Source: a bacterium (lineage in GTDB: Bacteria > NPL-UPA2 > JAGMAN01). Taken from it: 8,964 nucleotides of DNA. Under the pieces are notes generated by a model, which made no database searches, had not been told where the DNA came from, and was given only the letters and a program-made list of their open reading frames with translations. A program made the position numbers and the translations under genes. Of the stretch, positions 1 through 8,964 are shown in pieces (the stretch's first letter is position 1; each line of letters begins with the position of its first letter). The stretch lies in assembly GCA_023130215.1 (NCBI GenBank), contig JAGMAN010000008.1:1-8964 (forward strand). The letters run 5' to 3'.

Positions 1-10
1 AATAAGTCAA

Positions 11-25
11 TAAAATTCGGGATTA
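11..25. repeat. Left copy of 15-bp direct repeat (target site duplication)
   Basis: TAAAATTCGGGATTA occurs here and again, in the same orientation, at 1773-1787, just outside the two ends of the insertion sequence. Neither copy extends further (A versus G before it, T versus A after it). A direct repeat that brackets an element is what staggered-cut insertion leaves. From memory, ISTde1-type members of the IS1202 group make duplications of about this length, longer than most IS families. Confidence 0.7.
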
Positions 26-82
26 TGTTGTTACAATAACAAAATGATAGTTTTTATTACTACGTGAAAATGTTAGTTTTTT
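26..82. repeat. Left terminal repeat of the insertion sequence (two units)
   Basis: Two related units, with cores AAAATGATAGTTTTT at 41-55 and AAAATGTTAGTTTTTT at 67-82, are the reverse complement of the units at the right end. The inner one is preceded by TACTACGTG as in the right end; the outer one starts with a diverged TGTTGTTACAATAAC. These are likely transposase-binding sites. Confidence 0.65.
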
Positions 83-123
83 GGTTTTGTAAAACATGCG
101 TTTTTAGATTGATTTTGATGATC

Positions 124-315
124 ATGATAGACAATCACCTTGCTTCAGATAGGTTTATCAAGTCCATAGAATTAAACTTTGATGAAGGTTCCATTAAGAA
201 GAGGTGGCGTAGAGCCAGGGATTTTTTTAACCAGGTAGAAGATGACCACTGGGATGATACCCTTAGAGATGTTAAAGCAATTTTGAGATATACTAAGATA
301 TGTCCCAAGCTTTAG
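124..315 (+). CDS. Doubtful small hypothetical protein inside the insertion sequence
   Basis: This is an open frame of 63 codons from an ATG at 124. It could start as early as a GTG at 64, but that would translate the terminal repeat itself and no convincing ribosome binding site is seen, so I chose the internal ATG. The product is highly charged, with an Arg/Lys stretch (IKKRWRRARDFF) followed by an acidic stretch. I do not recognise a family. It lies between the left end and the transposase, so it could be a passenger or a relic. Another broken frame at 300-452 (one in-frame TAA at 351-353) follows, which fits decayed sequence better than a working gene. Confidence 0.22.
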   Translation: MIDNHLASDRFIKSIELNFDEGSIKKRWRRARDFFNQVEDDHWDDTLRDVKAILRYTKICPKL

Positions 316-470
316 AAATGGCTCTACGGCCCTTCTATGAGCCTAATTTTTAAACTAAAGGTGTCTCTTTAGCTAAAATGCCAGAAATTGTCAAAGAACA
401 AGTTTTTCAAATGCTCTTTATAGAGCAAATGCGGAGCTCTAATGTTGACTGAGTAAAGATAAATCCGTAT

Positions 471-509
471 CCTTCCTCTTAGGGCAAGGTAAGCCCGAAA
501 GGAGGAAGG
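471..509 (+). promoter_or_regulatory. Hairpin sequestering the transposase ribosome binding site
   Basis: CCTTCCTC (471-478) pairs perfectly with GAGGAAGG (502-509), extended by a T-G and a T-A pair, and an inner stem GGGC/GCCC (482-485 with 493-496) closes a 7-base loop. The right arm is the ribosome binding site GGAGGAAGG that lies directly before the ATG at 511. In RNA this fold would hide the site and keep transposase translation low, a control known for other insertion sequences such as IS10 and IS50, where read-through transcripts are silenced this way. Confidence 0.72.
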
Positions 510-510
510 T

Positions 511-1728
511 ATGGAACTGAAAATCATAGGGGTTGAGAAAGCAGTGCATAGATATACTGTTATTAAAGATTGCCTGAAGAAAAGAATTAAGGCAATCCAG
601 GCCAGCCAAATATTGGGTCTTAGCTATATACATTTCTTAAGACTCAAAAAGAAAGTTGCTATCCATGGCTTTCAAGCGCTTATAAGAGTATCCAGACCCT
701 CTCCCAGAAAGATCCCTGAGGCAAAGGCCAAGGTGATAGCTGGTTTGTATGAGGATTATTATTCCGATTTCAATGTTCTTCATTTTAAAGACAAACTGGA
801 AGATGTCCATAAAATCCTTCTATCCTATGAGGCCATAAGAAAGATCCTTATAGAGTATAATCTGCATACTCCTAAAAAGAAGAAAATTGTCCATCGTAGA
901 CGTCGGAGGATGCCTAAGGCCGGTATGTTAGTCCAGATGGATTCATCCCAGCATAACTGGATAGAACACATCCCTGAGAAATGGTGGTTAGTAGCCATGA
1001 TTGATGATGCCACTAATGAGACTCCCTATGCTAAGTTCTATCCTTCTGATACTGTCTTTGCCAACATGCATGTGATAAGAAGATTCACTGAACTAAAGGG
1101 TATCTTCATGTGCCTTTATCCGGACAAAGCCTCTCATTTTAAAACCACAAGGCATGGTGGCACCCATTATGATGTCAAGGAGCAACAGAAAGATACTCAG
1201 ATAGAACGCGCTCTGGATGAGCTTGGTATAAATATCATCAATGCAAACTCCCCCCAGGCAAAGGGAAGGATAGAACGGCTCTTTAGATTCTTCCAGGACC
1301 GCCTTATCAAAGAGATGAGATTAGCTGGCATAAGAGATTATACTCAAGCTAATAAGTTCCTAATAAATAAGTTCCTCCCCTGGTATAACAAAAGATATAC
1401 TCACACGGCTGAATCTGCTTATCTACCATTGCCTAAGGATAAGAATCTGGATACTATCTTTTGTATCAAGAAAGAAAGAACGGTAAATCATGATAATACT
1501 ATCTCCTGGGATAACCAGATCATCCAGATCCCTCCCAGTGATATAAGGCTATCCTTTGCTAAGGCCAAGGTGGATGCCTGTCTCCTGAAGAATAGAGATG
1601 TCCTGGTGCTATACAAAAACACTATCATTGCCAAGGCAAAGCTATCTAAGAGTAATAAGTTTATCAAAGAACAGCAGCTAGAACAAAAGATATTAGGTGC
1701 TAAACTCTATGAACCGGTTGGTGTGTAA
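511..1728 (+). CDS. DDE transposase, IS1202/ISNCY type
   Basis: This enzyme cuts and rejoins the ends of the insertion sequence. The 405-residue product starts with a helix-turn-helix segment (about residues 12-60), then a basic linker (KKKKIVHRRRRR, 122-133), then an RNase-H-like integrase core. Visible acidic residues are Asp144 in VQMDSS, Asp205 in YPDKASHF and Glu255 in NSPQAKGRIERLF, the DDE set, with the Asn-Ser-Pro-Gln-x-Lys-Gly-x-x-Glu motif typical of rve-fold transposases. The frame is unbroken and of full length for such proteins, so it may be active. The ATG follows GGAGGAAGG but within a strong hairpin. The stop codon (1726-1728) falls at the edge of the right terminal repeat, so gene and end overlap slightly. 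Assignment to the IS1202 (ISNCY) group is from recognition of the core; an IS481-like relative is less likely. Confidence 0.85.
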   Translation: MELKIIGVEKAVHRYTVIKDCLKKRIKAIQASQILGLSYIHFLRLKKKVAIHGFQALIRVSRPSPRKIPEAKAKVIAGLYEDYYSDFNVLHFKDKLEDVHKILLSYEAIRKILIEYNLHTPKKKKIVHRRRRRMPKAGMLVQMDSSQHNWIEHIPEKWWLVAMIDDATNETPYAKFYPSDTVFANMHVIRRFTELKGIFMCLYPDKASHFKTTRHGGTHYDVKEQQKDTQIERALDELGINIINANSPQAKGRIERLFRFFQDRLIKEMRLAGIRDYTQANKFLINKFLPWYNKRYTHTAESAYLPLPKDKNLDTIFCIKKERTVNHDNTISWDNQIIQIPPSDIRLSFAKAKVDACLLKNRDVLVLYKNTIIAKAKLSKSNKFIKEQQLEQKILGAKLYEPVGV

Positions 1729-1774
1729 AAACTATCATTTTGATGTAGTAAAAAACTATCATCTTGACGTAGTA
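1727..1774. repeat. Right terminal repeat of the insertion sequence (tandem 24-bp units)
   Basis: Two 24-bp units lie head to tail at 1727-1750 and 1751-1774, differing at only two positions (T/C each). Each contains AAAAACTATCAT and ends in GTAGTA. They are inverted relative to the left-end units, so each end offers two transposase-binding sites. Confidence 0.75.
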
Positions 1775-1787
1775 AAATTCGGGATTA
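1773..1787. repeat. Right copy of 15-bp direct repeat (target site duplication)
   Basis: Identical to bases 11-25 and adjacent to the right end of the insertion sequence. The first two bases may also belong to the last terminal unit. Removing the element and one copy would join base 25 to base 1788. Confidence 0.7.
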
Positions 1788-1833
1788 ACATGTGCGCCAA
1801 AAAAATCTGCACCACCGCCTGCACCATCGCCTG

Positions 1834-1862
1834 TTGACAAACTCACCTTTCTGTGGTAATAT
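1834..1862 (+). promoter_or_regulatory. Strong sigma70-type promoter
   Basis: TTGACA (1834-1839), a 17-base spacer and TAATAT (1857-1862), with TG at 1854-1855 giving an extended -10. This is close to consensus and lies just outside the insertion sequence, about 45 bases before the next start codon. Just upstream, 1808-1831 is a 12-bp tandem repeat (TGCACCACCGCC / TGCACCATCGCC). Confidence 0.75.
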
Positions 1863-1905
1863 TTAGGACAACAAAACAGGATGAGCTCCCGGGAGAATAT
1901 TCATT

Positions 1906-2415
1906 ATGAAAAATACAATAGAAGTTATAAATGAATTAAAGAAAGAAAAATTGATAAAAGATTATGCTGTGGGAGGAGCGATAGGGGCTTTAAAGTGGGT
2001 TGAACTGTTTTTTACGAGCAACTTAGATATATTTATTATTCCCGTAAAGGAAACGGAAAAACTGATTAATCTATCACCTATATATGAGTATCTCAAGAAA
2101 AAAGGATATTATTGGAAAGGACAGTGGATAATTATCGAAGAGGTTCCCGTATATTTTATTCCAGCTGATGCCCTTGGAAAAGAAGCAGTAGAAAATGCGG
2201 AAGAAACAGAATACGAGGGAATAAAAACTAAAGTAATAACTCCGGAATATCTGATAGCATTGTTTTTAAAAGCTGGCCGAGATAAAGATGTAAGAAAGAC
2301 AGAGATGTTATTAGAACAGGCAAAGGTAGATACAGGAAAGCTTGATAAAATTTTAGAGGAATACGGGTTAACCAGTAAGTTTGTTAAGTTTAAGAAGAGG
2401 CGACATGGAAGATAA
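1906..2415 (+). CDS. AbiEii-like nucleotidyltransferase (toxin-like)
   Basis: The 169-residue product resembles small proteins of the polymerase-beta nucleotidyltransferase superfamily related to AbiEii/MNT toxins, which transfer nucleotides to RNA or protein targets. Seen: AVGGAIGALKW (21-31) with the Gly-Gly pair of the fold, TSNLDIFI (37-44) where the metal-binding acidic motif should be, VPVYFIPADAL (80-90) as the third strand, and a helical C-terminal half with ITPEYLIALFLKAGRDKD (111-128), the segment that I associate with this family. The usual DxD motif reads N-L-D here (Asn39, Asp41), so one metal ligand is altered. The ATG follows GGGAG at 1891-1895, which is part of a perfect palindrome CTCCCGGGAG (1886-1895). 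The stop overlaps the next gene by 11 bases, so the two are translated together. Family call is from recognition; whether it is an active toxin is open. Confidence 0.7.
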   Translation: MKNTIEVINELKKEKLIKDYAVGGAIGALKWVELFFTSNLDIFIIPVKETEKLINLSPIYEYLKKKGYYWKGQWIIIEEVPVYFIPADALGKEAVENAEETEYEGIKTKVITPEYLIALFLKAGRDKDVRKTEMLLEQAKVDTGKLDKILEEYGLTSKFVKFKKRRHGR

Positions 2416-2596
2416 TCAAAAAATCGTTATCGGTGATAAGATAATAACCCGTAAAGAGTTATTTGAAGAAAAAGAAAAATTTCGCAAGGTTCGAGCCGCC
2501 ATGCCTTTTGAAGAAAAAATAAAGGTACTGATTGAACTGCAGAAAATTGCCTACCAGTGGGGTAAAAGAAAAGATGTAATAATCTGGATGAGCTGA
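2405..2596 (+). CDS. Small partner protein of the nucleotidyltransferase
   Basis: This 63-residue charged protein has an acidic and basic N-terminal half followed by AAMPFEEKIKVLIELQKIA (about 33-51). A segment of the form L/M-P-F-x-E-K-L/I is what I recall in short proteins encoded next to AbiEii-like nucleotidyltransferases. An earlier in-frame ATG at 2381 would add eight residues, but the ATG at 2405 is preceded by AAGAAGAGG at good spacing and gives the expected start MEDNQK, so I prefer it. It overlaps the upstream stop codon, the usual layout of a two-gene module. By position it could be an antitoxin or a target-binding subunit; neither role is shown by the sequence. No membrane segment or signal peptide is visible. 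Confidence 0.65.
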   Translation: MEDNQKIVIGDKIITRKELFEEKEKFRKVRAAMPFEEKIKVLIELQKIAYQWGKRKDVIIWMS

Positions 2597-2742
2597 CATA
2601 GAAATATTGCCATTTAATAAAGAAAGAGTGAGTGTGTAAGTTTGTCAATTTAAAGCGTATTTTGACCTTCCATAATATATTCCCCGACGATAAAATTATG
2701 GCCTAACAAGTCAGGTTTAACTGTTGAAAGAAAGTCTGAAAA

Positions 2743-3948
2743 ATGAGTGTAGATGTTTTGGTCATAAATACGGCGGTAGTAGATTTTAGAAGCAGTGAAT
2801 TTAATTTTGTTGAAAAACTTGTTGGCCCCGGCGGCCTGGCCAAATGCAGTACTGAAGATATGCCTGATTATTCCCAGGAAGAATACAGGCAATGGATAGA
2901 GCGGGGTCAGGCAACAGCCGGCGGACCAGGCAATGCCGCGCCTTTAATGGCCAGAGCGGGACTGAAAACAGCTGTTGATGTTAATCTGGGCAAGGGTGCT
3001 TTTAACGGTTTAGATGCGGCCGGCCGATATTTTTATGATGTCATGACCGAGGATAGCATAGATATGTCCGGGACATATATCCATTCAACCTTGCCTACAG
3101 GCACTACCTTTATTCATGAAAAAGGCAAAGAAGAGCGTGGCGGCATAGCCTATTTCCCTAATGCCAATAATGATTTTGACTTTGATTATTTCAAAGAATC
3201 TGTAGAGCGCCTGAATCCCAAGATTGTTTATTACATGTATTCCGGCCTTTCAGATAGAGGTGATGCCAATGGCGGAAAGGATCTGGCAGAATTTATTAAA
3301 TGGTGCCGCAAGCAGGGAGCTATTACTATTGTTGACAGCCATACCTTGACCGGTAATCCTAAGAAATTGATTGATTCCGGCCAGCCAGTAAAAGAATATA
3401 AATTGCTTATTCCGCTTCTACCCGAAGTTGATATCTTTTTCACCTCTTCAGACGAAGCCAAGATGATAGAAAACACGTTGAGCTCACCCCGTGACTGGAC
3501 TCCATTTAGTTACGATGAGAACATGTGCCATTTTCTGGATTTTCTCACCTCTAAATTCTGGCAGGGCGATAACCGGACCAAAATATTCGGAGTTACAGTA
3601 AATAACGGCGCCTATGAAAAACATATGAAGCCGGACGGCACAGTTCCCGAACAGGCAAAAACAGAATCACGGTTTATCGCCAGTGAAGTTATAGATTTGG
3701 TAGGCGCGGGTGACTCATTCAGGGCAGGACTTATTACTTACATTGCCAGGAATATTGATAGTTTTCGACAGGGTAATCTCAATTTTTCCGAGGCAGTCCA
3801 GATGGGCAATCTTTTTGCTTGTTTATATATTAAAGCTCCGCTTGGTGACAGGTACAGGTATATAAAGCCTTATGAAAAGATGTCAAAAATAATCCGAAGC
3901 CAGAAAACTTATAATGCTTTTACCGAATTAATAGAACTCCTGGAATAG
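2743..3948 (+). CDS. PfkB-family sugar kinase (ribokinase-like)
   Basis: A cytoplasmic kinase that uses ATP or ADP to phosphorylate a sugar or nucleoside hydroxyl; the substrate cannot be read from sequence. Seen: the Gly-rich substrate-binding segment AGGPGNAAPLMARAG (59-73), NLGKGAFNGLDAAGRYFYD (81-99), the lid region LPTGTTFIHEKGKEERGG (117-134), SSDEA in the nucleotide half (encoded near 3449-3463), and the second PfkB signature DLVGAGDSFRAG (318-329), where Asp324 is the expected catalytic base and GAGD the anion hole. At 401 residues it is longer than the usual 300-330, with extra sequence near residues 28-58 and in the C-terminal half. The ATG has only a weak purine-rich site (GAAAGAAAG) before it. 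It sits 146 bases after the nucleotidyltransferase pair with no clear promoter or terminator between, so it could be read through from upstream. Confidence 0.85.
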   Translation: MSVDVLVINTAVVDFRSSEFNFVEKLVGPGGLAKCSTEDMPDYSQEEYRQWIERGQATAGGPGNAAPLMARAGLKTAVDVNLGKGAFNGLDAAGRYFYDVMTEDSIDMSGTYIHSTLPTGTTFIHEKGKEERGGIAYFPNANNDFDFDYFKESVERLNPKIVYYMYSGLSDRGDANGGKDLAEFIKWCRKQGAITIVDSHTLTGNPKKLIDSGQPVKEYKLLIPLLPEVDIFFTSSDEAKMIENTLSSPRDWTPFSYDENMCHFLDFLTSKFWQGDNRTKIFGVTVNNGAYEKHMKPDGTVPEQAKTESRFIASEVIDLVGAGDSFRAGLITYIARNIDSFRQGNLNFSEAVQMGNLFACLYIKAPLGDRYRYIKPYEKMSKIIRSQKTYNAFTELIELLE

Positions 3949-4195
3949 GACAAAAAGGCGTTTGTCAAAAGAAAGACAGCGAAGGCGATTGAAGAATCAG
4001 CGGCGCCGGAAAAAGGTCTTTCTTCTATCTGCTCTAACGATACCCTGTCTGCTGCTTCATAAATATGGTCCTGATACACGCCGTAAATTTAGTCGAGAAT
4101 ATCCTCCAAAACTGGGAATTTTAGACAGACCTCTTCGAATGCTCCTTTTTCTGTTAAAAAAACCCCTGTTAAAAAAACACTGTTAAAAAAACCCC
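3949..4195. other. Intergenic region before fic, no supported gene
   Basis: A 74-codon frame beginning with TTG at 3962 crosses this stretch, but its product is a Lys/Arg-rich start followed by nondescript sequence that ends inside the A-rich tandem repeat, and I do not accept it as a gene. There is a 9-bp inverted pair AAGAAAGAC (3969-3977) and GTCTTTCTT (4016-4024) with a 38-base middle that contains CGGCGCCG. It lacks a T-tract after it, so it is not a normal terminator. I see nothing else. Confidence 0.5.
4151..4194. repeat. A-tract tandem repeat, three units of 14-15 bp
   Basis: CTGTTAAAAAAACCC is repeated three times (4151-4165, 4166-4179 with one base fewer, 4180-4194). The third unit ends one base before the -35 box of the fic promoter. 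The A7 tracts could act like an UP element or as slippage-prone sequence that changes promoter strength. Confidence 0.7.
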
Positions 4196-4224
4196 TTGAC
4201 ATATCGTATCGGATAGTGTATATT
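4196..4224 (+). promoter_or_regulatory. Promoter of fic
   Basis: TTGACA (4196-4201), 17-base spacer, TATATT (4219-4224). Start of transcription is expected near 4231, leaving a short leader before the ATG at 4260. Two palindromes lie within and just after the promoter. Confidence 0.8.
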
Positions 4225-4242
4225 TTTAGTGTATCCGATACA
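4206..4242. promoter_or_regulatory. Twin palindromic operator over the fic promoter
   Basis: GTATCGGATA (4206-4215) and TATCCGATAC (4232-4241) are perfect reverse complements. Each also contains its own palindrome TATC-S-GATA, and the second extends to TGTATCCGATACA (4230-4242). One site lies between -35 and -10, the other at the start of transcription, 26 bases apart centre to centre. A bound dimer at either would block RNA polymerase. The Fic protein itself, with a DNA-binding C-terminus, is a candidate regulator. Confidence 0.65.
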
Positions 4243-4259
4243 AAGGGAGAAAAGCGCAT

Positions 4260-5198
4260 ATGATGGACAGAAATCTATATAACAGAATAGTCCAGAAGAA
4301 AAAGCAACTCGATAAGTTAAGGCCATTTCCTAAAACTGCCTTAGAAAAATTAAAAGAAAAAATTGTTGTGGAATGGACGTATAATTCCAATGCTATAGAA
4401 GGAAGTTCCCTTACTCTTAAAGAAACTAAGTTAATATTGGAAGATGGCTTAACTATAAAAGGCAAACCCTTGAAGGAACATCTTGAAGCAATCAATCATA
4501 GAGATGCTATTGAATTTGTGGAAAAATTACTCTCTAAAAGAGTCATGGTTACTCCTTTGCTTATAAGGCAGATACATTCGCTTGTATTGACTAAAATCGA
4601 TGATAAAGAAGCAGGTAAATATAGAAACGTAAAAGTTACTATTTCCGGGTCAAAATATATTCCTCCGGAGTTAATTTCGGTTCCTCATCTTATGGCTGAT
4701 TTTGGCAAATGGCTTAAAAATAAGAAGTCAAAGGCCAATATTATAGAATATGCTGCAATAGCTCATTTTAAACTTGTGCATATTCATCCATTTATTGATG
4801 GCAACGGCAGAACCGCAAGATTATTAACAAATCTTATTCTTATGCAGCATGGATTTCCGCCAACAGTAGTGCTAAAAGTAGATAGAAAAAGATATTATGA
4901 TTGTTTAGAAAAAGGACACAAAGAAAAATTAGTTGATTTTATCAATTTTATGGCTAGATCTGTTGAGCGCTCATTAGCAATCTGGATTGAAGCAATAAAA
5001 CCTGAAAAAGAACAAAAGCCTGAGGAGAAATATTTACCTATAAGCAAGGTTTATAAGGAAACACCTTATGGTCAGGAATATTTGAGTCTATTGGCAAGAG
5101 AAGGTAAGATTGAAGCTGTAAAATTTGGCAGAAACTGGTTTATTTCTAAAGAAGCAGTAAAAAAATATATTACTTCCTTAGAAAAAAGAAGTAGCTAA
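4260..5198 (+). CDS. Fic-domain AMP transferase with C-terminal excisionase-like DNA-binding domain
   Basis: Fic proteins usually transfer AMP from ATP to hydroxyl groups on target proteins. Seen in 312 residues: an N-terminal helix with SNAIEG (43-48), matching the S/T-x-x-x-E-G inhibitory motif of class II Fic proteins, where Glu47 would block the ATP gamma-phosphate; the Fic core with catalytic HPFIDGNGRTAR (176-187), including His176 and the Asn and Arg residues of the active loop; and a C-terminal segment (about 258-305, with YLPISKVYKETPYGQEY and FGRNWFISKEAVKKYI) that looks like a MerR/excisionase-type DNA-binding domain. All key residues are intact. The GGGAG at 4245-4249 supports the ATG at 4260; the next codon is also ATG. 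It has its own promoter and operator and is followed by a terminator, so it is probably a single-gene unit that regulates itself. Confidence 0.88.
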   Translation: MMDRNLYNRIVQKKKQLDKLRPFPKTALEKLKEKIVVEWTYNSNAIEGSSLTLKETKLILEDGLTIKGKPLKEHLEAINHRDAIEFVEKLLSKRVMVTPLLIRQIHSLVLTKIDDKEAGKYRNVKVTISGSKYIPPELISVPHLMADFGKWLKNKKSKANIIEYAAIAHFKLVHIHPFIDGNGRTARLLTNLILMQHGFPPTVVLKVDRKRYYDCLEKGHKEKLVDFINFMARSVERSLAIWIEAIKPEKEQKPEEKYLPISKVYKETPYGQEYLSLLAREGKIEAVKFGRNWFISKEAVKKYITSLEKRSS

Positions 5199-5253
5199 AG
5201 TTGTGCGTACATAGCCTTGTTATCAACATTGACCGGCCCGGGGAGCCACTATT

Positions 5254-5282
5254 TGTAACTTACTGTAAATAGGTAAGTTACA
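5254..5282. repeat. 10-bp perfect inverted repeat with 9-base loop
   Basis: TGTAACTTAC (5254-5263) and GTAAGTTACA (5273-5282) are exact reverse complements. The arms are AT-rich and no T-tract follows directly, so on its own this is a poor terminator. It lies five bases before the terminator and may be part of the same 3' structure or a protein-binding site. Confidence 0.6.
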
Positions 5283-5286
5283 CCAT

Positions 5287-5324
5287 AAAGAGTCTGTCTG
5301 CTTTTAGGCAGGCTCTTTTTATTT
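5287..5324 (+). terminator. Rho-independent terminator after fic
   Basis: AAAGAGTCTGTCT (5287-5299) pairs with AGGCAGGCTCTTT (5306-5318) through 13 pairs, two of them G-T, around a 6-base loop, followed by TTATTT. It closes the fic transcript and isolates the downstream operon. The T-rich tail runs into the -35 box of the next promoter. Confidence 0.85.
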
Positions 5325-5351
5325 GACATGTAGAAAATTATTTGGTAAAAT
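5323..5351 (+). promoter_or_regulatory. Promoter of the nagB operon
   Basis: TTGACA (5323-5328), 17-base spacer, TAAAAT (5346-5351). Transcription should start near 5358, inside the palindrome that follows. It is the only clear promoter for the four genes downstream. Confidence 0.8.
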
Positions 5352-5352
5352 T

Positions 5353-5374
5353 ATTATGAACACATGTTCATAAT
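5353..5374. promoter_or_regulatory. 22-bp palindromic operator, GAAC-N4-GTTC core
   Basis: ATTATGAAC (5353-5361) and GTTCATAAT (5366-5374) are perfect reverse complements separated by ACAT. The site covers the expected start of transcription directly after the -10 box, so binding should repress. The core GAAC-ACAT-GTTC also satisfies the Gram-positive LexA box form GAAC-RNRY-GTTC. Alternatively it belonged to the DUF134 gene whose start follows, since such proteins have helix-turn-helix domains and could regulate themselves. Confidence 0.7.
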
Positions 5375-5388
5375 TAATAGAGGTGGCC

Positions 5389-5487
5389 ATGAGACCAAAA
5401 AAGACAAGATGGATTAAATGTGAGCCCGGAGAAAGAAAGGAGGAGGAAGAATGCAGGTATTTATTAAGAAAGATTATGAGGAGATGA
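5389..5487 (+). pseudogene. Truncated DUF134-like gene start (32-codon leader)
   Basis: An ATG at 5389, two bases after the good ribosome binding site GAGGTGG, opens a 32-codon frame. Its first 16 residues, MRPKKTRWIKCEPGER, look like the N-terminus of DUF134 proteins, small regulators with a helix-turn-helix, which usually continue with an aromatic-Pro segment. Here the frame instead runs into the purine-rich ribosome binding site of nagB (KEEEE) and stops inside nagB at 5485-5487. It overlaps nagB by 37 bases. It thus looks like promoter, operator and first codons of a regulator gene joined to nagB by deletion or recombination near base 5435. It may still be translated as a leader peptide. 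The DUF134 match is from memory of the family. Confidence 0.5.
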
Positions 5488-6236
5488 GCCAAAAGGCGGC
5501 TGAGATTGTGGTTGAGGAGATGGGAAGAAAGAAGGATGGTTTCGTTCTTGGTCTGGCCACGGGAAGCACTCCGGTTGGTCTATATAAGGAGCTCATCCGC
5601 ATGCACAAGGATGAGGGCTTAGATTTCTCCAGGGTGACCACCTTTAACTTAGACGAATACTGTAGCCTGGCCCCAGACCATCCACAGAGCTACCATTACT
5701 TCATGGACGATAATCTCTTCAATCACATAAATATTGATAAGAAGAATGTCCATGTCCCAGATGGAATGGCTAAAGACTTAGAGGCTCATTGTCGGGAATA
5801 TGAGAAAATGATTCGTGATGCCGGGGGGATAGATTTACAGGTCTTGGGGATTGGAGGGGATGGCCACATTGCTTTCAATGAACCTGGTTCCTCGCTTGGT
5901 TCCCGAACCCGGGTAAAGACCTTAACTGAGGAGACAATTAAGGATAACGCCCGTTTCTTCAAAAACATTGATGAGGTGCCCAAATATGCCATCACCATGG
6001 GAGTCGGGAGCGTAATGGAAGCTAAGATTTGTCTGCTCCTGGCTAACGGAGCCAAGAAGGCCGAGGTATTAGCTAAGGCGGTGGAGGGTCCGATAACGGC
6101 TGAGATTACTGCTTCTGTGCTCCAGATGCATCCCAATACTATGGTGGTGATGGATGAAGCTGCCGGGGCGAAGCTAAAAAGAAAAGATTATTATAAGCAT
6201 GTTGAAAAGATGACTGATGCATTAAAAAAGAAGTAA
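5451..6236 (+). CDS. nagB: Glucosamine-6-phosphate deaminase
   Basis: This enzyme interconverts glucosamine 6-phosphate and fructose 6-phosphate plus ammonia, linking amino sugars to glycolysis. The 261 residues match the family length and contain every key residue I can place against E. coli NagB: the phosphate loop GLATGSTPVGLYKEL (34-48), catalytic Asp68 in NLDEY (E. coli Asp72), Asp137, His139 and Glu144 in GGDGHIAFNEP (Asp141, His143, Glu148), Arg168 in ARFF (phosphate-binding Arg172) and Lys203 (Lys208). The allosteric-site residues are also kept (Ser147, Ser148, Arg154, Lys156), so N-acetylglucosamine 6-phosphate control is possible. AGGAGGAGG at 5438-5446 gives a very strong ribosome binding site for the ATG. 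It is the first full gene of a four-gene operon, with the next start 12 bases after its stop codon. Confidence 0.93.
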   Translation: MQVFIKKDYEEMSQKAAEIVVEEMGRKKDGFVLGLATGSTPVGLYKELIRMHKDEGLDFSRVTTFNLDEYCSLAPDHPQSYHYFMDDNLFNHINIDKKNVHVPDGMAKDLEAHCREYEKMIRDAGGIDLQVLGIGGDGHIAFNEPGSSLGSRTRVKTLTEETIKDNARFFKNIDEVPKYAITMGVGSVMEAKICLLLANGAKKAEVLAKAVEGPITAEITASVLQMHPNTMVVMDEAAGAKLKRKDYYKHVEKMTDALKKK

Positions 6237-6248
6237 GGAGATTGTGAA

Positions 6249-8141
6249 TTGAATATTCACCAAATTCTGAAAGAGGCCATCAGCACTTCAGAGTTAATTA
6301 AGGGTTTGGAAGAGGTAAGAGAAAGGGTGGCCGCGCAGAGTCTAAGTCCTGCAACAATAAAGAAGCTTGAAGAGAATGGAAACTATGCCTCTGACTGGAG
6401 TAAAGTGAAAGTGACCTCAGGATTTAACCCCGGGAGAGTAAAGAATTCCTGCTTCTACGGAGAGGTCATTCTCGGCAAGTTTGAAGAAGAGATAGAGGTA
6501 GAAAAAGAAGTGAGTCTCAGCAGTGGAATATATAATTCTACCCTGATAAATTGCAGGATTGGCAACAATACTCTCATAAAGGAGGTTAGGTGTTTAGCCA
6601 ATTATGTGGTTAGAGACAGAGCAGTTTTGTTTAACCTGGGTGTCATTTCCACCGAAAAGGCAGCCACTTTTGGTAATGGAATAGAGCTACCTCTGGCCAT
6701 AGAGACAGGGGGGCGGGAGGTAAAAACCTATGCCGAAATCACCGTTGAGGTTGCCGAGAAGTTAGCCCGTTCCCGGGGTGATAAGAAACTGCTCTCTGAA
6801 TATGAAAGGTTAATCAAGGAATATTTGGCTAAAGTCACCTCTGATAAAGGGATTATTTCTGAAGGAGCAGTGGTGAAGAATACCCCAAAGGTGCTCAGTA
6901 CCTATATTGGACCCTACGGAGTTATTGAGAACGCATCTACAGTGATTAATGTTACTATGTTAAGCAGTAAGGATGAGCCAACTAAAATCAGCGACGGAGC
7001 ATATGTAAAAGACTCAATCCTCCAGTGGAGTAGTCAGGTTACTTCTTTAGCTATTGTTACTTCCTCTGTTTTGACCGAACACTCTCATGTTGAGCGCCAC
7101 GGCAAGGTTACTGACTCTATTCTCGGGCCCAATAGCGGGGTGGGCGAAGGAGAGATAACTGCTTCGCTGGTAGGGCCATTTGTTGGTTTCCATCATCAGG
7201 CGCTACTTATTGCGGCCTTCTGGCCCGAGGGTAAAGGCAATGTAAGTTACGGGGCAAATGTTGGTTCTAATCATACTGGTAAAGCACCCGACCAGGAGAT
7301 TTTCTGCGGTGAGGGAGTTTTTTTTGGTCTCGGATGCAATATAAAGTTCCCTTCTAATTTTAGAAATGCACCATATTCACTAATTGCTTCAGTAGTTGAC
7401 GCTTTACCTCAAAAGGTCGAGTTCCCCTTCTCGCTTATCAATACGCCTGCTCATGCCTTGGAAGGTGTCTCTCCCGCCTTAAATGAGATAATACCGGCGT
7501 GGGTTCTCTCGGATAATCTCTACATGATAAGGAGGAACGAAGCCAAATATAAAAAGAGAAATAAAGCAAAGAGGTCGAAAATCATTTTTGATATTCTCCG
7601 AACTGAAATTATTGATTTAATGATAGAGGCCAGAAGAAGACTTTTGCATGTGAAAGAGGTAAAGCAAGTCTATACTCAGGAAGACATTCCTGGTCTTGGC
7701 AAGAATTATCTTCTTGAAATAAATAGAGAAAAAGCGATAGAGACTTATACCTTCTTCATAAGATATTATGCACTCATCGAGTTAAAGAAAGTTTTAGAAA
7801 AAAATCTCTTAGAGGGAATATCACCAAAAGAGATTCTCTCTGTCTCCTCTTTCGATTCCGAAGGACACTGGGAACACGCAAGGCAGATAATTTCAAAAGA
7901 TTTCCCCTCAAAAGATATTGGAGAATTACTAAAAACCCTCCTTCGGATGGAAGAAAAGGTGAGTAAAATGGTGGAAGAGTCTAAGGAAAAGGACGATGTT
8001 AGGGGCGAGAAAATTATTGACGACTATTCTGAGGTACATATATCAGCATCTGATGATCCATTTGTAAAAGAAACACGCCGGGAGGTTGAAAGAATAAGGG
8101 CGGAGATTCACAATCTTTTTGGAAAGGAGAAAAAATGGTAA
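6249..8141 (+). CDS. DUF4954-like left-handed beta-helix protein (putative acyl- or sugar-transferase)
   Basis: I recognise the N-terminal two thirds as DUF4954-like: a left-handed parallel beta-helix of the kind used by LpxA/GlmU-type transferases. Seen in 630 residues: NYASDWSKVKV and GFNPGRVKNSCFYGEV (45-73), helix-coil repeats such as SSGIYNSTLINCRIGNNTLI (91-110), FGNGIELPLAIETGGREV (141-158), more coils (200-310), GPFVGFHH (309-316) and GANVGSNHTGKAPDQE (335-350), whose His315, His316 and His342 are the best catalytic candidates. Residues about 425-630 are helical and charged, possibly a partner-binding domain. No signal peptide or membrane segment is visible, so it should be cytoplasmic. 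The start is TTG at 6249, supported by AAGGAG at 6235-6240; no in-frame alternative close by is better. It overlaps the ACP gene by 7 bases. No reaction is established for DUF4954; acyl or sugar transfer is inferred from fold and neighbours. Confidence 0.7.
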   Translation: MNIHQILKEAISTSELIKGLEEVRERVAAQSLSPATIKKLEENGNYASDWSKVKVTSGFNPGRVKNSCFYGEVILGKFEEEIEVEKEVSLSSGIYNSTLINCRIGNNTLIKEVRCLANYVVRDRAVLFNLGVISTEKAATFGNGIELPLAIETGGREVKTYAEITVEVAEKLARSRGDKKLLSEYERLIKEYLAKVTSDKGIISEGAVVKNTPKVLSTYIGPYGVIENASTVINVTMLSSKDEPTKISDGAYVKDSILQWSSQVTSLAIVTSSVLTEHSHVERHGKVTDSILGPNSGVGEGEITASLVGPFVGFHHQALLIAAFWPEGKGNVSYGANVGSNHTGKAPDQEIFCGEGVFFGLGCNIKFPSNFRNAPYSLIASVVDALPQKVEFPFSLINTPAHALEGVSPALNEIIPAWVLSDNLYMIRRNEAKYKKRNKAKRSKIIFDILRTEIIDLMIEARRRLLHVKEVKQVYTQEDIPGLGKNYLLEINREKAIETYTFFIRYYALIELKKVLEKNLLEGISPKEILSVSSFDSEGHWEHARQIISKDFPSKDIGELLKTLLRMEEKVSKMVEESKEKDDVRGEKIIDDYSEVHISASDDPFVKETRREVERIRAEIHNLFGKEKKW

Positions 8142-8386
8142 ACAGAGAAGATGTTCAAAAAGGGGTGATAAAAATAGCCTCGCAGGTATTGAAGATTGAC
8201 CCATCTGAAATTAAACCGGAATCGAATTTTGTGTTTGACCTTGGAGCAGAATCAATAGATAGTGTCGAGTTAGTGGCTGGTTTTGAAACGGAATTTGATA
8301 TCGAAATGGATGAAGAGGCTGCTTTGGAAGTGCAAACAGTAGATAAAGCTGTAGATTACATCATCGGTTACCTTGAGAAGAAATAA
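8135..8386 (+). CDS. Acyl carrier protein, operon-specific
   Basis: A small acidic four-helix carrier that holds acyl chains as thioesters on a phosphopantetheine arm. At 83 residues it has normal length. FDLGAESIDSVELV (34-47) is the attachment motif, with Ser40 as the modified residue; the usual D-S-L reads E-S-I. Helix 2 and the acidic segment EFDIEMDEEAALEV (53-66) are typical for partner recognition. Its ATG lies inside the last codons of the beta-helix gene (7-base overlap) with AAGGAG at 8123-8128, so translation is coupled. No fatty-acid synthesis genes sit nearby, so this is likely a dedicated carrier for a special pathway and not the housekeeping AcpP. A peptidyl or D-alanyl carrier is a less likely alternative. 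Confidence 0.9.
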   Translation: MVNREDVQKGVIKIASQVLKIDPSEIKPESNFVFDLGAESIDSVELVAGFETEFDIEMDEEAALEVQTVDKAVDYIIGYLEKK

Positions 8387-8413
8387 AAAAACCAGAGGAG
8401 GTGCTTCAAAAAA

Positions 8414-8964
8414 ATGAAAGTTATTATCGCAAAAGATTATAATGAAATGAGCAAACGAGCGGCATCAATTATTACTGAAGGTATTCGTAAAAAACCTCAC
8501 TTTGTTCTTGGTTTGGATGTATCTAATACAATAATCGGGACCTATAAGGAGCTTATACGGTCACATAAAGAGGGGAGTTTAGATTTTTCACGAGTATTCA
8601 CTTTCAACCTGGATGAATATCTGGGGTTGGCCCCAAACCATACCCAGAGCTGTCGTTACTTTATGGATACCAATCTATTCAATCATATTAACATTGATAA
8701 GCGTAATATAAACATTCCCAACGGTCTCACTAAGGACCCACAGACTCTTTGCCAGCAATATGAAAAATTGATTAGAGAAGTAGCCGGAATTGATCTTCAA
8801 ATTTTAGGGCTTGGACAGGATGGACATATTGGATTCAATGAACCCGGTTCTTCTCTCGCGTCTCGGACCAGGATAAAGACCCTGACGGAAAAAACGGTTA
8901 AAGATAGGACTCAATTTTTTGAAAAACCAGAAGATGTCTCTAAGTTTGCTATAACCATGGGAGT
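8414..8964 (+). CDS. NagB paralogue with altered phosphate-binding site (partial, runs off window)
   Basis: The first 183 codons of a second NagB-fold protein are visible; the rest lies beyond the window. It aligns along its length with the NagB encoded at 5451-6236, sharing FNLDEY, HINIDK and LTE/LASRTRIKTL-type segments. The catalytic residues are kept: Asp67, Asp136, His138 and Glu143 (E. coli Asp72, Asp141, His143, Glu148), as are allosteric-site residues Ser146, Ser147, Arg153 and Lys155. The phosphate loop, however, reads GLDVSNTIIGTYKEL instead of GLATGSTPVGLYKEL, and the phosphate-binding Arg172 equivalent is Gln167. It may therefore act on a sugar that lacks a free 6-phosphate, or be a regulatory subunit. 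AGAGGAGGTG at 8394-8403 gives a very strong ribosome binding site 10 bases before the ATG; the gene starts 27 bases after the ACP stop, in the same operon. Confidence 0.88.
   Translation, partial: MKVIIAKDYNEMSKRAASIITEGIRKKPHFVLGLDVSNTIIGTYKELIRSHKEGSLDFSRVFTFNLDEYLGLAPNHTQSCRYFMDTNLFNHINIDKRNINIPNGLTKDPQTLCQQYEKLIREVAGIDLQILGLGQDGHIGFNEPGSSLASRTRIKTLTEKTVKDRTQFFEKPEDVSKFAITMG

Follow-up and report, generated by a model that had tools for sequence, protein, structure and literature searches.

A conserved module of NagB, a GlmU-type beta-helix protein and a dedicated acyl carrier protein points to an undescribed amino-sugar step

We describe a gene module found in an 8,964-nucleotide stretch of bacterial DNA (GTDB lineage Bacteria; NPL-UPA2; JAGMAN01; GenBank assembly GCA_023130215.1, contig JAGMAN010000008.1, positions 1 to 8,964), which we refer to as the window and which is the entire contig C115 of a draft genome of 1.01 Mb, 90% complete. 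Four genes (Table 1) encode a glucosamine-6-phosphate deaminase/isomerase (NagB1), a protein of the DUF4954 family with a predicted beta-helix, an acyl carrier protein (ACP) and a second NagB-family protein (NagB2); the window stops inside the last of these because the contig stops there. The module is real and conserved across phyla, and it consists of NagB, a GlmU-type beta-helix protein (DUF4954, a TIGR03991 protein that we call GlmUalt, or both), a dedicated ACP, and acetate/acetyl-CoA enzymes, i.e., either ADP-forming acyl-CoA synthetase (ACD) or Pta-AckA. That these genes stand side by side in distant bacteria points to a shared amino-sugar step that is so far undescribed.

Table 1. Features of the module within the window and the basis for each
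Feature	Position	Strand	Basis
Promoter-like site TTGACA-17-TAAAAT	5323..5351	+	Consensus match only: 11/12 positions, TG before the -10 element
Candidate operator: inverted repeat ATTATGAAC-ACAT-GTTCATAAT, 9-bp arms, 4-base spacer, directly after the -10 element	5353..5374		Sequence inspection
nagB1, glucosamine-6-phosphate deaminase/isomerase	5451..6236	+	TIGR00502 and active-site alignment
DUF4954 protein gene, TTG start	6249..8141	+	PF16314, 43-sequence alignment, model, fold comparison
ACP gene, carrier serine S40	8135..8386	+	Subfamily profile and tree
nagB2, 5' part	8414..8964	+	Rest on contig C131 (L024:1-263) via 25-base contig overlap

The four genes are separated by +12, -7 and +27 bases, and no terminator-like site was found on the + strand between 5319 and 8964; one such site lies just upstream of the promoter-like site, at 5287-5318. 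The initial annotation had described the same four open reading frames, spacings and families, all of which were borne out by the reading-frame calls and by matches to TIGR00502, PF16314 and TIGR00517. Its promoter, as a promoter-like site, and the lack of an internal terminator-like site also held, the terminator pattern being weak evidence since such sites are about as frequent in shuffled sequence. It had further advised reading the genes past base 8964, and these could be recovered: contig C131 starts with 25 exact bases in common with the window end, and a NagB-family search located the missing C-terminus of NagB2 there, which yields a joined protein of 262 aa. Next on C131 is the gene for ACD, overlapping nagB2 by 4 bases, and then come genes for GlmUalt (378 bits against TIGR03991, cut-off 225), for another GlmU-like protein and for a metallo-hydrolase (MBL). 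All of them share one strand, the gaps after ACD being 36, 59 and 66 bases, and no + strand terminator-like site was found between the operon genes on C131. From this spacing we infer that the eight genes nagB1, DUF4954, ACP, nagB2, ACD, GlmUalt, GlmU-like and MBL form one operon with a single transcript, of which the window holds the front half. A 33-codon open reading frame (MRPKKTRWIKCEPGERKEEE...) at 5390-5491 overlaps the start of nagB1; a 22-aa piece of this region had no match in Pfam, and the short frame and the inverted repeat of Table 1 may be what is left of a different gene under regulation.

The DUF4954 protein matches PF16314 with an E-value of 3.7e-60 (204 bits against a curated cut-off of 26.2), and its predicted layout is an N-terminal segment, a left-handed beta-helix domain and C-terminal helices. 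Across 43 DUF4954 sequences from three divergent groups, 25 alignment columns are invariant, and they include E152, R156, N295, E302, H315, H316, N331, R429, K433 and R437. AlphaFold2 models of the window protein (predicted local distance difference test, pLDDT, 78) and of the member at locus L078 (pLDDT 80) both contain the beta-helix domain. When compared by VIA-align, the window model gave Z scores of 12.6 with GlmU, 12.4 with LpxD (4ihg, from a study of LpxD and ACP) and 9.4-10.9 with LpxA; for the L078 model the scores were 12.4 with LpxA, 12.2 with GlmU and 11.8 with LpxD. At moderate model confidence and moderate Z, GlmU, LpxD and LpxA thus appear to be the closest solved folds to this domain. 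A profile of the DUF4954 core also aligned with the acetyltransferase domain of E. coli GlmU (E 1.2e-7, prob 94), and the controls, namely 20 shuffles and the reversed GlmU sequence, all scored prob 1.3 or less; the GlmU query was checked against 1hv9 and deviates from it at a single residue, which is not in the part that the comparison relies on. The LpxA/LpxD-like protein that had been guessed at from the DNA alone is therefore upheld in its fold but not in its family: the LpxA and LpxD models TIGR01852 and TIGR01853 had no match to DUF4954 up to E 0.1. Family profile searches did not find in DUF4954 the nucleotidyltransferase domain that is a criterion for GlmU.

The ACP of the window matches TIGR00517 (73 bits, cut-off 70.45), and yet it is not the housekeeping AcpP of its host, which is encoded elsewhere, clustered with fab genes of contig C113. 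A profile for the linked ACPs (A2) gives its members 108-135 bits across 40 genomes and every other ACP at most 87, the housekeeping ACPs included; the window ACP scores 127. This profile was built from the window ACP and most other members, and three GlmUalt-linked ACPs that did not enter the build score 108-118. In a tree with 16 ACPs from each side, linked and housekeeping, the window and linked proteins form one clade, with 100/100 support for the split. The carrier serine is invariant. Furthermore, fab genes are present at all 14 housekeeping ACP loci that were fetched, and at none of the linked ACP loci. We therefore rejected an assignment as AcpP on the separate clade, the profile score and the absence of fab genes nearby. 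In three genomes that had no DUF4954 match in profile searches, the same ACP adjoins GlmUalt, together with AckA and/or Pta, and in one of these three loci also NagB. The linked ACP goes with a beta-helix protein, DUF4954 or GlmUalt, whichever is present; two different beta-helix proteins evidently fill one slot. We also noted that the linked ACP of L088, L091, L093 and L094 is followed directly by a homocitrate/isopropylmalate-synthase-like (HMGL-like) gene, which fell below cut-offs in the two of these four loci that were tested.

The acylation pathway put forward in the initial annotation would have fallen had its gene set been confined to this genome; NagB-DUF4954 pairs do recur, and so does the dedicated ACP. 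Close relatives of the window DUF4954 (46-58% identity, group A) occur in Omnitrophota, Spirochaetota, Fibrobacterota (Chitinispirillaceae) and one further family, and nagB lies immediately upstream of DUF4954 in 12 of the 13 group A loci, five of these 12 having a ROK kinase gene ahead of nagB. The protein was not found in eight other genomes of the host phylum. In another class, DUF4954 exceeded the cut-off in 34/63 genomes. Among 24 loci of the main type read in this class, 15 have the ACP as a neighbor, 13 have NagB and ten have ACD or AckA/Pta, counts that are lower bounds because several contigs are short. The full set of DUF4954, ACP, NagB and either ACD or Pta-AckA is found at eight loci in four families, with differing gene orders: ACP-ACD-NagB-DUF4954 in L078, L079, L083, L084 and L085; NagB-Pta-AckA-ACP-DUF4954 in L092 and L095; and Pta-AckA-ACP-DUF4954, with NagB on the opposite strand, in L090. 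Bearing in mind that the loci are not independent, since related species share ancestry, these changed orders are a better argument than the counts. A crude binomial figure for ACP adjacency was set aside, as it disregards that ancestry and had been computed with 14 loci in place of 15. A third, longer type of DUF4954 (group C, eight loci) has none of these neighbors within 1.5 kb. Long NagB-like proteins also occur beside or near DUF4954 (L007:5826-8159, L009:11895-14228, L098:3228-5567 and L091:11813-14170); those of L007 and L098 match PRK02122 (glucosamine-6-phosphate deaminase-like) below cut-off, and those of L009 and L091 were found by BLAST only.

NagB1 scores 341.6 bits against TIGR00502 (cut-off 236.9) and, when aligned with E. 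coli NagB (reference sequence verified against 1cd5), retains the catalytic residues D72, D141, H143 and E148 as well as the phosphate-binding residues. The joined NagB2 is also above the cut-off, at 299.7 bits, and keeps D72, D141, H143, E148 and K208. Its phosphate loop and R172, which serve as a criterion for the NagB equivalog, are altered (T41 to V, G42 to S, P45 to I, Y85 to C and R172 to Q). The 'second NagB paralogue' of the earlier reading is thus a member of the family, but not a plain second NagB. In a tree, nagB1 and nagB2 are sisters (support 87/83), with branch lengths of 0.50 for NagB2 and 0.22 for NagB1. A decayed copy was considered and rejected: the frame is open and differences are most frequent at third codon positions (60%, vs 19% at second positions), for which reasons nagB2 seems to be under selection. 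The probable role of NagB2, as a derivative of nagB1, is that of a subunit with a regulatory function or an altered substrate.

The direction in which NagB1 works bears on what the module might do. Cells normally need GlmS, a broadly conserved enzyme, for glucosamine 6-phosphate. Profile searches of the host assembly, which is 90% complete, found no glmS over the cut-off (best 63 bits vs 418; all 14 control genomes were positive) and no nagA. There was likewise no glmS over cut-off in two other genomes of the host genus (81% and 69% complete); four other genomes of the host phylum do have it. The lack of a glmS match makes the synthetic direction the most likely one for NagB1 here, and a biosynthetic direction is also favored by the two GlmU-type genes in the operon.

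We hypothesize that the dedicated ACP serves a DUF4954 beta-helix acyltransferase that acts on a glucosamine phosphate. In such a route, NagB1 would catalyze the reversible conversion of fructose 6-phosphate and ammonia to glucosamine 6-phosphate, running here most likely toward synthesis. Acetyl-CoA, or another short acyl-CoA related to it, would come from ACD, and the phosphopantetheine of the dedicated ACP would be loaded with the acyl group. DUF4954 would pass this group on to glucosamine phosphate, at the amino group or at a hydroxyl, and GlmUalt and the GlmU-like protein would then form the UDP-sugar. Every catalytic step, the contact between ACP and DUF4954, the acyl chain and the direction are what we infer, and we advance the proposal tentatively, as one with slightly less than an even chance of being right. 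Because ACD/Pta-AckA and GlmU-type genes are present, a short acyl group (acetyl) is indicated at least as strongly as a fatty acyl group. The more specific version, an ACP-dependent amino-sugar acyltransferase system in which DUF4954 and its own ACP deliver an acetate-derived or other short acyl group to glucosamine phosphates, ACP replacing CoA, and which would give several phyla another route to acylated amino sugars, we regard as doubtful. The acyl-ACP amino-sugar pathway of the initial annotation remains a reasonable lead: it gains partial, not conclusive, support from the conserved gene set and the acyltransferase-like fold, but it had missed the acetate/acetyl-CoA enzymes and the GlmU-type genes.

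Several observations weigh against the proposed acyl transfer. Foldseek returned no match at E < 0.001 for either DUF4954 model. H315 and H316 are invariant, but the stretch of beta-helix that contains them is modelled with low confidence in both proteins and its register against GlmU is unstable; an equivalence of H316 with the catalytic His363 of GlmU appeared in one alignment only, was lost with group-specific profiles and was not used. No enzyme for loading an acyl group onto the ACP is evident. No member of the linked-ACP subfamily was found in the DUF4954 genomes G020, G060, G064-G069, G074, G111 and G112, so the ACP is not essential to DUF4954 function everywhere, and a version in which DUF4954 always needs it was rejected. 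The neighbors seen elsewhere (ROK kinases, NagB-like/PRK02122 proteins, pyruvate:ferredoxin oxidoreductase, AckA-Pta) suit breakdown equally well. Finally, genomes G006 and G007 carry both glmS and the ACP module, which weakens the idea of the module as a simple replacement for GlmS.

Those same neighbors could describe a module for the fermentation of N-acetylated amino sugars. The 6-phosphate would be formed by a ROK kinase; deacylation would free acetate, or else DUF4954, running in reverse, would shift the acetyl group onto ACP or CoA; NagB would deaminate glucosamine 6-phosphate; and ACD or Pta-AckA would convert acetyl-CoA to acetate with a gain of ATP, these enzymes being usually ATP-yielding. 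Consistent with such a route, the ROK kinase adjoins NagB in the five loci mentioned above, a NagB-like/PRK02122 protein is beside or near DUF4954 in L007, L009, L086 and L098, and pyruvate:ferredoxin oxidoreductase is beside DUF4954 in L089, L092 and L095. We nevertheless consider fermentation rather unlikely, given that searches of the host genome turned up no nagA, that the GlmU-type genes of the same operon are biosynthetic company, and that we know of no precedent for an ACP in amino-sugar breakdown.

It may instead be that DUF4954 is a non-catalytic sensor or scaffold, which would bind an amino-sugar phosphate and the acyl state of the ACP, control NagB and so couple amino-sugar flux to the supply of carbon and acetyl-CoA, with NagB2 as a regulatory subunit. 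NagB is the most constant neighbor of DUF4954, even where the ACP is missing, and NagB2 has lost phosphate-binding residues yet shows the codon-position bias of purifying selection. The 25 invariant residues, with the polar E152, R156, N295, E302, H315, H316 and N331 conserved across three divergent groups, resemble an active site, and we judge a purely regulatory role to be improbable. That the genes are chance neighbors, or reflect general operon crowding with no common function, has largely been refuted already and is very improbable indeed: several DUF4954 loci do lack these neighbors, including all eight of group C (1.5-kb flanks) and L013, but the frequencies of ACP (15/24) and NagB (13/24), the changed gene orders over several families and the separate ACP clade all speak against it.

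The rest of the window lies upstream of the module. Positions 1-1790 hold an insertion-sequence-like element with similar short stretches on both flanks and a 405-aa transposase frame (511-1728) that has a weak integrase-core match. A PfkB-type sugar kinase at 2743-3948, outside the operon, is under the cut-offs of every named subfamily. Positions 4260-5198 encode a Fic-domain protein that ends in a helix-turn-helix-like stretch at its C-terminal side; a promoter-like site of its own lies at 4196-4224.

Literature searches on the gene set, on PF16314/TIGR03991 and on NagB as an aminating enzyme yielded nothing useful, and the module appears to be undescribed in the searchable literature. DUF4954 has no described function; only two papers in the literature searched mention it, one of them just as an annotation in Treponema pallidum. 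The recurrent company of this family (NagB, acetate-activating enzymes and a dedicated ACP) suggests a concrete, testable reaction, and with it a possible GlmS-independent route to glucosamine 6-phosphate.

Three known systems invite comparison. The nag operon (nagA, nagB and a kinase) with AckA-Pta or ACD shares NagB, the ROK kinase and the acetate enzymes with the module, but ACP and DUF4954 are foreign to it, and the search for nagA in the host was negative. The acetyltransferase domain of GlmU is the best fold match of the window DUF4954 and has profile similarity to it, and GlmUalt, a GlmU of the TIGR03991 type, occupies the slot of DUF4954 beside the same ACP subfamily; DUF4954 differs in being without a nucleotidyltransferase domain, and the acyl donor of GlmU is acetyl-CoA, not ACP. 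LpxA and LpxD are acyl-ACP-dependent acyltransferases of UDP-N-acetylglucosamine (UDP-GlcNAc) and UDP-acyl-glucosamine, respectively, and DUF4954 resembles them in its predicted left-handed beta-helix (Z 11.8-12.4 for LpxD and 9.4-12.4 for LpxA), in the position of its gene beside an ACP and in its amino-sugar context. It departs from them in its length of 630 aa with long C-terminal helices, in its neighbors NagB and acetate enzymes, and in an ACP that is not the housekeeping one. If an ACP does bring the acyl group to an amino-sugar phosphate here, outside lipid A synthesis, the module would be an exception, in several phyla, to the textbook account in which N-acetylation draws on CoA only.

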